Source: an uncultured bacterium (GTDB taxonomy: Bacteria; Cyanobacteriota; Vampirovibrionia; Gastranaerophilales; Gastranaerophilaceae). From it: a stretch of DNA of 64,000 nt. The position numbers and the translations under genes are program-made. The DNA lies in the NCBI GenBank assembly GCA_949286705.1, contig CASEDF010000003.1, positions 62,474 through 126,473 of the forward strand. Reading direction: 5' to 3'. The number at the start of each line of letters is the position of its first letter. Within the stretch, counting starts at the first letter, position 1. This document shows, in pieces, positions 25,274 through 27,621 of the stretch. The notes under the pieces were generated by a model. That model saw only the letters and a list, made by a program, of their open reading frames with translations, searched no databases and was not told the origin of the DNA.

Positions 25274-26146
25274 ATGCACACAAAAACCATTCCATTGAAA
25301 TTCAGAATATTATTGATAATCCGAAAGATGCTTTTTTTAACAATCGGAGCATTTATCGCTGCAGCGGCAATCGAAGGATTTTTGCTGCCGAATAACATTA
25401 TTGACGGCGGTGTCATCGGTATTTCAATGATTGCGACTTACCTGACAAAAATTAATCTGGGCTTGCTCGTTGTTTTGATTAACTTTCCTTTTATCTGTCT
25501 TGCATTTACCAAAATGGGGAAAAAATTTGTACTGCAGACATTTTATGCGATTATAATGTTTTCGCTCGCATTGAACATATTTCACGGGCATCAGGCGACG
25601 GAGGATTTGCTTCTGGCAACGGTATTCGGCGGGATAATCCTCGGCACCGGAGTCGGCATAATCCTTAAAAACGAAGGCTCGCTTGACGGAACTGAAATCC
25701 TTTCGCTTGTTTTATCCAAAAAATGGGGGTTTTCGGTCGGTGAATTCATTATGGGGATGAATATATTCATCTATTGCGGGGCGGGACTTGTTTTCGGCTG
25801 GGGAAAAGCAATGTATTCAATGCTCACCTATTTTATAGCGTTTAAGGTTATTGATATTGTTATTGAAGGGCTTAACAGCTCCAAATCCGTCAGAATTATC
25901 AGCGACAAATCCTATGAAATCGGGCAAACGCTTATTGAAAAGCTTGATATCGGAATTACTTATATATACGGGCAGGGCGGCTATTCAAAAGTCGATAAAA
26001 CAATGATTTACTGTATTATTTCCCGTCTTGAAATGTCCAAAATGAAAGAAATTGTCCGCGAAATTGACCCCAATGCGTTTATGTCAATTGTTGACGTTCA
26101 CGAAACCTACGGCGCCAGACTCAAAAAAAGAGTTAATAAGATATAG
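25274..26146 (+). CDS. YitT-family membrane protein (DUF161/DUF2179)
   Basis: 290 residues: about five membrane helices (residues 15-175), then a C-terminal DUF2179-type domain (about 205-285; VRIISDKSYEIGQTLIEKLDIG). Function of the family is not established. Starts 1 nt after cdaA's stop, so part of the same operon. A TAAG-octad array begins 5 nt after its stop. Confidence 0.85.
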   Translation: MHTKTIPLKFRILLIIRKMLFLTIGAFIAAAAIEGFLLPNNIIDGGVIGISMIATYLTKINLGLLVVLINFPFICLAFTKMGKKFVLQTFYAIIMFSLALNIFHGHQATEDLLLATVFGGIILGTGVGIILKNEGSLDGTEILSLVLSKKWGFSVGEFIMGMNIFIYCGAGLVFGWGKAMYSMLTYFIAFKVIDIVIEGLNSSKSVRIISDKSYEIGQTLIEKLDIGITYIYGQGGYSKVDKTMIYCIISRLEMSKMKEIVREIDPNAFMSIVDVHETYGARLKKRVNKI

Positions 26147-26150
26147 TTGC

Positions 26151-26208
26151 TAAGATATTAAGGCAGCAGGATAGTAAGGATTTACTGTCGGATAAGCCGA
26201 CCTGCAGT
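26151..26208. repeat. TAAG-octad array followed by GTCGG hairpin
   Basis: TAAG at 26151, 26159 and 26175 with a degenerate CAGG at 26167 in register; then stem GTCGG/CCGAC (26187-26191, 26197-26201) and CTGCAG. Confidence 0.75.
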
Positions 26209-26213
26209 AGACT

Positions 26214-26241
26214 TTGAATTTTTATATTTTTATAGTATAAA
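26214..26241 (+). promoter_or_regulatory. tRNA-Gly promoter
   Basis: TTGAAT (26214-26219) and TATAAA (26236-26241), 16-bp spacing, just upstream of the tRNA. Confidence 0.55.
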
Positions 26242-26251
26242 TAAGATAGCT

Positions 26252-26323
26252 GCGGAAGTAATTCAGTGGTAGAATGCAACCTTCCCAAGGTTGACGTCGC
26301 GGGTTCGAGTCCCGTCTTCCGCT
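26252..26323 (+). tRNA. tRNA-Gly (CCC)
   Basis: 72 nt. Acceptor stem GCGGAAG/CTTCCGC, D-arm ATTCAGTGGTAGAAT, anticodon loop TTCCCAA (anticodon CCC), T-loop TTCGAGT, discriminator T. No CCA follows here (TTTGTTG); a second copy of the 3' end at 26635-26650 is followed by CCA and the terminator. Confidence 0.95.
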
Positions 26324-26374
26324 TTTGTTGAAAACAGAATATCGGCGGACGAGAACCGCAAAGCGAAGCTTTGC
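26316..26374 (+). repeat. 59-bp direct repeat, copy 1 (overlaps tRNA-Gly 3' end)
   Basis: Identical to 26471-26529. Contains the hairpin GCAAAGC-GAA-GCTTTGC at its right end. Confidence 0.9.
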
Positions 26375-26650
26375 AAAAACCTGTTTGCGGACGGAGCGGC
26401 AATAAGTTGAGTCCCGTTGCTTCAGCTCTTAACGAACGAAGTGAGTTTAGAGATGAAGTACCCCGTGTGGCTTCCGCTTTTGTTGAAAACAGAATATCGG
26501 CGGACGAGAACCGCAAAGCGAAGCTTTGCCCCAGGTTCGAGCGCGAACGAGCTGAGGCTGGAGGAATTTTCTTTGCAAGCGGCAAAGCCGCGAAAAGAAA
26601 ATCCGAAATGCCGTTAAACGCGAGTGAGCAAGACAGTCCCGTCTTCCGCT
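26324..26650. mobile_element. hairpin-rich insert between tRNA-Gly and a duplicate of its 3' end
   Basis: No gene is supported in 26324-26769; frames here are antisense readings of tRNA repeats. AGTCCCGTCTTCCGCT (26308-26323) recurs exactly at 26635-26650, and two degraded versions lie near 26409 and 26458. Two 59-bp direct repeats and triloop hairpins such as GCGGC-AAA-GCCGC fill the gap. Could be a small integrated element or serial duplications. Confidence 0.6.
26471..26529 (+). repeat. 59-bp direct repeat, copy 2
   Basis: Identical to 26316-26374, 155 bp further on. Confidence 0.9.
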
Positions 26651-26656
26651 CCACCT

Positions 26657-26685
26657 AAAAGGCTTTATCTGTCTGCCTTTTGGGA
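26657..26685 (+). terminator. terminator after the duplicated tRNA-Gly 3' end
   Basis: AAAAGGC (26657-26663) pairs with GCCTTTT (26675-26681). It follows the duplicate 3' end that carries CCA, so it is probably the original tRNA terminator. Confidence 0.65.
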
Positions 26686-26769
26686 AAGTATAAAATTTTA
26701 TTATTGTCTAGTTTTTTATTTATTCTCACATTTTGCTCACATTTTTAGAAGAAATATAAAGGAGTATAT

Positions 26770-27621
26770 ATGATAACAGAAATTTTAAATTACGCGGATA
26801 AAATCGAAGCAGCGCTAAAGACGCTGAAGTTCGGCTTTATCATAGGGATTATAATCAACGTAATAATAGCGATTGCGCTTTTCAAGGTTACGGATATTTT
26901 TATACGGAAATTGAAAGAGCATACACAAAAGTCTGATTCAACGGCGCTTTCAGCGCATTTGATACCGATTTTGGATAAAACTATAAAATTTTTAATTTTG
27001 TTTTTTATAGTTGCATCGTTTTTGCAGAGTAACGGGTATTCAATAACCTCATTGATAGCAGGTTTTGGTATAACCGGTCTGGCAGTGGGCTTTGCGGCGC
27101 AGCAGACAATTGCTGATTTTTTCGGAACGCTTGCGATTATTGCGGATAAAATTTATAAACTCGGCGATTACGTTAAAATCGGCGAGATTGAGGGTACGGT
27201 TGAAGATATAAACCTTTTGTCAACCAAAATCCGCACACTGGACGATTTTATCGTGTCAATTCCCAATAATAATATCTCGGCGACTTTGATTACAAATATT
27301 TCAAAAGCCAGAAAGCGCCGTATTAACGAAGTTTTTGGCGTAACTTACGACACAAGTGACCAAAAACTTCACCGCGCAATTGAGATTATAAAAGAAGTTT
27401 GCGAAAACGACACAAGGGTTCACAAAAATCCCGTCACGGTTGTCGAAACCCTTTCTGCAAGCTCAATTGACATAAGACTTTACGCTTATGTCAAAGCGAA
27501 CGCTTTTAATGAATTTATCAAAATAAGGTCAGACGTAATTCTGGAGATTGTAAAACGCTTCAGAGCAGAGGGCATAGATTTTGCGTTCCCGTCACAGTCT
27601 GTTTATATTGAGAAAAAATGA
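26770..27621 (+). CDS. mscS: MscS-family mechanosensitive channel
   Basis: 283 residues, the classic size. Three N-terminal helices; pore helix TM3 with GFGITGLAVGFAAQQTIADF, then the beta domain (GDYVKIGEIEGTVEDINLLST) and the C-terminal alpha/beta domain. Releases solutes on hypo-osmotic shock. Strong AAAGGAG ribosome site. The ATGA overlap couples it to rlmH. Confidence 0.93.
   Translation: MITEILNYADKIEAALKTLKFGFIIGIIINVIIAIALFKVTDIFIRKLKEHTQKSDSTALSAHLIPILDKTIKFLILFFIVASFLQSNGYSITSLIAGFGITGLAVGFAAQQTIADFFGTLAIIADKIYKLGDYVKIGEIEGTVEDINLLSTKIRTLDDFIVSIPNNNISATLITNISKARKRRINEVFGVTYDTSDQKLHRAIEIIKEVCENDTRVHKNPVTVVETLSASSIDIRLYAYVKANAFNEFIKIRSDVILEIVKRFRAEGIDFAFPSQSVYIEKK

Follow-up and report, generated by a model that had tools for sequence, protein, structure and literature searches.

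Short hairpin units stacked behind tRNA genes of Gastranaerophilales look like an undescribed mobile element

The stretch analyzed here, called the window, comprises 64,000 nt of contig CASEDF010000003.1 from a 1.85-Mb metagenome-assembled genome (MAG; G000) of the family Gastranaerophilaceae, and coordinates refer to the window unless another locus is named. Candidatus Gastranaerophilales is a non-photosynthetic sister lineage of cyanobacteria. In the window, the tRNA-Gly(CCC) gene is followed by two tandem non-coding units, each containing a hairpin-forming core, which we call the body, and then by a displaced copy of the 3' end of the tRNA. Similar units were found behind at least 21 isoacceptors in the order Gastranaerophilales. 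The feature is real, precise and lineage-wide, and in kind it combines a variant form of tRNA-targeted integration with a structured non-autonomous repeat. With moderate confidence, we favor the explanation that these arrays are tandem copies of a short, non-coding, non-autonomous unit that is recognized by its structure, lodges in tRNA genes and is moved in trans. The hairpin units resemble a mobile element not described before, which would mark the sites at which these genomes acquire new DNA, including phage-defence genes.

The 16-nt tRNA end AGTCCCGTCTTCCGCT was present in exact copies at 26308-26323 and 26635-26650, at a spacing of 327 bp. The proximal copy continued as TTTGTTG without CCA, and the distal copy was followed by CCA (26651-26653) and by the terminator, which only this copy possesses. 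An initial annotation of the window, made from the sequence alone, had noted this duplication together with two 59-bp direct repeats and two further degraded tRNA ends in the interval; the duplication was confirmed as real, and the other elements were all present. The 59-bp repeats, which are exact, lie at 26316-26374 and 26471-26529, and because the last 8 nt of the tRNA open each of them, each forms the left part of one of two tandem units. The two degraded ends read GTTGAGTCCCGTTGCTTC near 26406 and GTGTGGCTTCCGCT ending at 26478. The conserved hairpin at the center of the inserted DNA had been missed by that annotation. The body model matched it in G000 (match R1, contig C3, 89008-89112, equal to window 26535-26639) with an E value of 2.7e-27, and in an Rfam scan of 26100-26800 the tRNA alone reached the gathering cut-off, the body matching no known family. 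The locus is composed as follows.

26252-26323, plus strand: functional tRNA-Gly(CCC) (ARAGORN; Rfam tRNA, 66.8 bits), with T-loop GTTCG/A58 (the slash marks the junction of positions 57 and 58) and no encoded CCA
26324-26470, plus strand: unit 1, delimited by sequence, with a left flank containing the GGACGAGAACCGCAAAGCGAAGCTTTGC hairpin, then a different (non type-A) body
26471-26478, plus strand: partial tRNA-Gly 3' end CTTCCGCT between units 1 and 2, opening the second 59-bp repeat
26479-26534, plus strand: left flank of unit 2, holding the 5' part of hairpin 1 (26502-26539, GGACGAGAACC...GGTTCG)
26535-26539, plus strand: GTTCG, a copy of the T-loop pentamer (positions 53-57) ahead of the body
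26540-26634, plus strand: type-A body, a long imperfect hairpin of about 95 nt, AGCGCGAAC...GAGCAAGAC, supported by a covariance-model match and covariation
26635-26653, plus strand: displaced original tRNA-Gly 3' end (A58 to discriminator) with encoded CCA, matching the empty allele of congener locus L080
26657-26681, plus strand: terminator-like inverted repeat of the original tRNA, AAAAGGC...GCCTTTT, partly common to L080

Alleles of this locus in congeners were compared ahead of the neighboring mechanosensitive-channel gene. Empty sites, which the initial annotation had proposed to look for in relatives, were found in L080 and L081. In L081 merely 17 bp separated tRNA-Gly from the next gene, and in L080 CCATCTAAAAGGCTTTATCTGTC, that is, the CCA and terminator of the distal flank of the window, lay directly on the tRNA. 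As the L080 tRNA carries the distal CCA and terminator of the window, the distal CCA end is ancestral and the proximal end arrived with the insertion. One unit was present in L076, a near-identical copy of unit 1 of the window in L079 (congener G005), and one or more units in L082 and L083. The empty and different alleles supported the proposal that DNA was inserted at the 3' region of the tRNA with the functional tRNA rebuilt proximally, and the tandem units and differing alleles supported insertion on more than one occasion. A conventional integrase element, in contrast, was not supported: the 327-bp interval is non-coding and contains no integrase gene, the inserted DNA belongs to an order-wide family occurring at many isoacceptors, and none of the five tyrosine recombinases in the genome matched it or lay at the tRNA-Gly locus.

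The duplication was not confined to tRNA-Gly(CCC). The genome contains 48 distinct tRNA sequences, 9 of which had at least 12 nt of their own last 25 nt copied within 500 bp downstream, and a control using the 3' end of a different tRNA gave 0 copies, which excluded chance as the source of the downstream copies. One of the nine, Pro, was merely a second tRNA gene; the eight tRNAs with a recurring 3' end were Arg-TCT, Gly-CCC, Gly-GCC, Leu-CAA, Leu-TAG, Leu-GAG, Lys-TTT and Glu-TTC. More diverged end copies were found at Asp, Asn, Tyr, Met, Phe and Thr. The upstream 1.5-kb flanks of the tRNAs of this genome contained no copies of the tRNA ends except for the Pro pair. A BLAST search of the window interval against its own genome gave partial matches, several of them directly downstream of other tRNA genes. 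Across the order, a unit began with a tRNA 3' end from A58, in most cases continued with a terminator-like inverted repeat, then with a spacer and GTTCG, and closed with a body ending in CAAGAC, after which came the next tRNA end; the units in the window lacked the terminator that most others have. The spacer frequently formed a hairpin, with GAGAAC at its start and GTTCG at its end, and 57 of 113 distinct bodies had a GAGAA motif in the 60 nt preceding them, against a background of 0.06 per 60 nt. At least two types of body were distinguished, type A of about 95-105 nt and type B of about 120 nt. Among 67 bodies at the 56 best loci, 46 lay within 800 bp downstream of a tRNA gene on the same strand, and 39 of these 46 showed a tRNA-end copy of at least 9 nt, mostly 16-19 nt from A58 after AAGAC. 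Many of the remaining bodies also ended in a tRNA 3' end, with the tRNA further off or the contig cut.

The fold of the body is real and clearly selected. RNAalifold predicted 19 pairs from 11 bodies, with double changes in 10 of them; in an alignment of 87 distinct bodies, 93.8% of cells were paired and double changes occurred in 15 of the 19 pairs. The covariation score of the 87 bodies was 0.458, compared with 0.179 for shuffled alignments and at most 0.08 for slid structures, and although the alignment was fitted to the model, which favors the fold, both controls were still far below. The tRNA-sense strand folded more stably in 85 of the 87 bodies, and the counts of G-U versus A-C for strand preference (61 versus 49) were not decisive. 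In the predicted folds, GTTCG paired with CGAGC near the right end of the body.

The covariance model was run on genome sets of the genus, the order and the phylum. The body was present in 16 of 16 genomes of the genus, with 1-44 copies each, and in 206 of 241 genomes representing 43 of 50 genera of Gastranaerophilales. In a phylum-wide draw, the 77 genomes with body matches all belonged to the same family as the window, and the other genomes of the same class or of cyanobacteria in that draw had no match. Two exact-pattern scans of viral contigs returned only two matches, both attributable to chance and located in GC-rich phage; the right-end pattern had no match. A search of a literature library found no report of this hairpin family. 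In G013, which had 44 model matches, many lay at contig ends. A shorter variant of the body (about 80 nt) was scattered away from tRNAs, beside pilin-like genes or inside other hairpins (L041, L043, L141 and L142).

Several comparisons suggested which part of the unit moves. In the displaced tRNA copies, the body was placed exactly between T-loop positions 57 and 58. At tRNA-Gly(GCC) and tRNA-Arg(TCT), the upstream 74 nt were 88-93% identical between species, and a type A or a type B body followed according to species, the switch occurring at GTTCG. Composite bodies at Arg and Leu-TAG consisted of B and then A, with A placed after the CAAGAC of B, and the number and order of units varied between close species at Tyr, Leu-CAA and Lys. 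Dispersed bodies at non-tRNA sites lay within an outer stem (CCGCGCC...GGCGCGG; GTGCC...GGCAC). Intact tyrosine-integrase islands of 11-12 kb at tRNA-Ile (L296-L298) left a clean remnant, attR CTGATAAGGGTGAGGTCGGTGGTTCGAGTCCACTGCGGCCCA, with an unbroken T-loop, and the remnants of other intact islands at tRNA-Met and tRNA-Gly were likewise clean. In two other genomes (L265 and L241), the tRNA-Ile remnant was split by a body exactly at GTTCG/A, and the right island flank was homologous to L296-L298. Comparison of filled L265 with empty L297 gave at most 1-2 shared bases, with no fixed-length target-site duplication such as that of a miniature inverted-repeat transposable element (MITE) of a DDE transposon. 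Because the islands, swaps, composites and outer-stem copies agree, we regard the body as an exchangeable module in hairpin loops, mainly displaced T-loops; the comparisons show that it can be gained and exchanged alone at the exact 57/58 point. No body was seen inside a functional tRNA, as expected from selection. We also considered whether the att site of these integrase islands includes the body; this was rejected since intact islands have clean T-loops.

These comparisons bear on an explanation without any mobility, in which unequal crossing-over and gene conversion between tandem tRNA ends enlarge the arrays, and the hairpin serves a conserved function in the tRNA trailer, for example as a barrier or an RNA. 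Adjacent bodies at one locus are often near-identical, and the selected fold would agree with such a role. However, congeners have empty alleles, bodies occur at non-tRNA sites, one body occupies an island remnant whose counterparts in other genera are clean, types A and B are swapped, and a terminator often stands between tRNA and body. We judge this explanation highly improbable.

tRNA genes are classic landing sites of mobile DNA, but an integrase is normally matched to one or a few tRNAs. Islander-type islands are integrated in tRNA genes by tyrosine integrases (PMC4383910), and the T-loop is an integration sublocation known from phage Ms6 (PMC1762012). As in such islands, the 3' part of the tRNA is duplicated at the unit loci, with the functional copy on one side, the displaced fragment on the other, and empty sites in relatives. 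The units differ from them in being about 150-330 bp long, non-coding, tandem and without integrase, in placing one hairpin family behind so many isoacceptors, and in having the displaced T-loop split by the hairpin. The tails might nevertheless be attR scars of tyrosine-integrase islands that lost their interior, with a hairpin like the repetitive extragenic palindromic (REP) sequences colonizing the remnants later and no special tRNA-targeting system at work. Prokaryotic genomes commonly contain tRNA fragments displaced by integration (PMC9897764), intact islands with clean attR remnants of 37-46 nt exist in the order, a body was found inserted in such a remnant, and L241 and L265 contain truncated integrase C-termini. 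The att repeats of the clean islands, however, start at the anticodon loop, whereas the repeat in the window and the small units start exactly at A58, preceded only by a partial T-stem and GTTCG. Moreover, the left motif GAGAAC is common to small units at many isoacceptors, and many independent islands would be needed to leave tandem units whose terminators differ at a single tRNA. We think scars with later colonization rather unlikely.

Each unit brings a spare 3' end of the tRNA, from T-loop position 58 on, so that the functional tRNA stays intact and the old end is pushed downstream. If the units are mobile and moved in trans, as we favor, a recombinase or transposase would recognize the folded, probably single-stranded, hairpin. 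The T-loop GTTCG/A would be the target, and since it is near-universal, one element family could enter almost any tRNA locus; only insertions leaving a complete tRNA would survive. One hairpin family at the T-loop of at least 21 isoacceptors would mean general entry to tRNA loci without an integrase of its own.

Several results weigh against this explanation. No enzyme linked to the body was found. Among the 16 congeners, all of which have the body, IS110 (DEDD transposase) occurred in 0, Y1 transposase (Y1_Tnp) in 7, gaps in the MAGs being possible, and reverse transcriptase in 10; the only tyrosine recombinases common to them were two Xer-like proteins, with one match missing in the least complete MAG. 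Neither a circular intermediate nor movement within a strain was seen among these genomes, which are all MAGs or single representatives. Gene conversion could be an alternative source of the precise body exchange. Between the T-stem half upstream of the body and the host tRNA, 2.3 of 4 positions matched, compared with 1.15 in shuffled sets, a difference inflated by kinship of the sequences; this partial match blurs the left boundary of the mobile unit. Xer or another host recombinase acting on folded DNA would fit the proposed model. Small tyrosine recombinases of about 180 aa in congeners were rejected as mobilizers, being missing from the genome of the window and mostly having no body nearby; they lay mostly beside restriction, HipA-like and polysaccharide genes, which suggests DNA inversion. 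Minimal proteins of this size without an N-terminal domain were also seen beside tRNA-His and tRNA-Arg genes (L173 1860-2399 and L182 1656-2228).

The Y1 counts also concern a single-strand HUH system (IS200/IS605-like, or the REP-associated tyrosine transposase RAYT), whose Y1 transposase would insert the hairpin 3' of GTTCG without target duplication. IS200/IS605-like elements insert after a fixed tetra- or pentanucleotide; here the insertion is directly 3' of GTTCG with no evident target duplication, the pentamer pairs with CGAGC in the predicted folds, and RAYT genes occur in the genome of the window and near a body at tRNA-Ser in G177. Against this, Y1_Tnp was found in fewer than half of the congeners with the body, the RAYT gene of the window genome (L192 272-775, contig C2) is flanked by its own REP, GTAGGTCGGCTTTACCAAGCCGAC, and not by the body, and of ten Y1 loci tested only L195 and L258 had a body. 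Such a system appears quite improbable to us. With REP/RAYT repeats, MITEs and IS200/IS605-derived palindromic repeats, the units share being short, non-coding, palindromic, dispersed and likely moved in trans; they are unlike these in their strong preference for T-loop 57/58 of tRNA remnants and their longer multi-loop fold, and the REP of the RAYT gene has a different sequence.

A bolder alternative is an integron-like system anchored on tRNA genes. A recombinase, possibly the Xer of the cell, would join folded hairpins to the T-arm of almost any tRNA, the cassettes would bring a new 3' end, usually a terminator and sometimes defence or toxin-antitoxin genes, and the tRNA tails would be order-wide cassette arrays. 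Integron attC sites have a conserved fold with variable sequence, and their modules are stacked behind a fixed anchor. The units likewise keep the fold while the sequence varies, are stacked in tandem, have a shuffled order and occasionally carry toxin-antitoxin cargo, and the folded bodies may be recombination sites. They differ in having the tRNA T-arm as anchor and GTTCG/A and CAAGAC/A as boundaries instead of the attC core site; they are mostly gene-free, and no IntI was identified among the Xer-like and phage-type proteins returned by a search with PF00589, a model that is not specific to IntI. We consider this alternative unlikely. In the same phylum, tycheposons are elements at tRNA genes with displaced tRNA ends. 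Unlike the units, they are large elements that encode a tyrosine recombinase or rely on one, and the other cyanobacterial families in the sample gave no match to the hairpin. The term tycheposons, for elements of marine picocyanobacteria, appears in PMC10872708.

Larger DNA was found with the bodies at several loci, and some bodies formed the ends of larger islands. In the tRNA-Asn array of the window genome (L038 1439-2237, G000:C12), two repeats of the tRNA-Asn 3' end flanked a zeta-toxin-like kinase (Pfam Zeta_toxin, 1.2e-8) and a 65-aa open reading frame, an arrangement that suggests capture of a toxin gene by the array. Either between tRNA and body or directly before the body, we found genes for a NERD nuclease (tRNA-Asp, L233), a HigBA-like pair (tRNA-Arg, L245), PD-(D/E)XK (L241), GIY-YIG (L242; this one named from sequence alone) and, in L265, PDC-S31 and a retron type VI reverse transcriptase. 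An island in L237 (1121-4305) contained SIR2-APAZ and short Argonaute genes (PADLOC, E values of 7e-165 and 8e-178) as well as type I restriction genes; its right end consisted of three bodies and tRNA-Asn-like ends, and its left end lay beyond the stretch examined. Unit-bearing loci also seem to let in larger DNA, defence and toxin-antitoxin genes among it. With such units, the borders of defence islands in uncultured gut bacteria could be located exactly, and contig breaks at tRNAs in these assemblies would be explained. Gaps of 2.3 kb between bodies in G012, G010 and G005 were rejected as cargo, since they reflected two distinct tRNA loci separated by an ordinary gene. In G154 (L246 4455-6846), a Mu-type transposase (Mu-transpos_C, rve) and a TniB-like ATPase were encoded directly behind tRNA-Leu(GAG), to the left of an island ended by a body.

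CCA was encoded in some tRNA genes and not in others, and proximal and distal copies at unit loci could differ in this respect. Insertions may have changed the CCA status of tRNA genes, and the units may explain the loss or gain of encoded CCA in some of them. Just upstream of tRNA-Gly in the window, at 26187-26206, the sequence GTCGGATAAGCCGACCTGCAG resembled the REP flanking the RAYT gene of the same genome.
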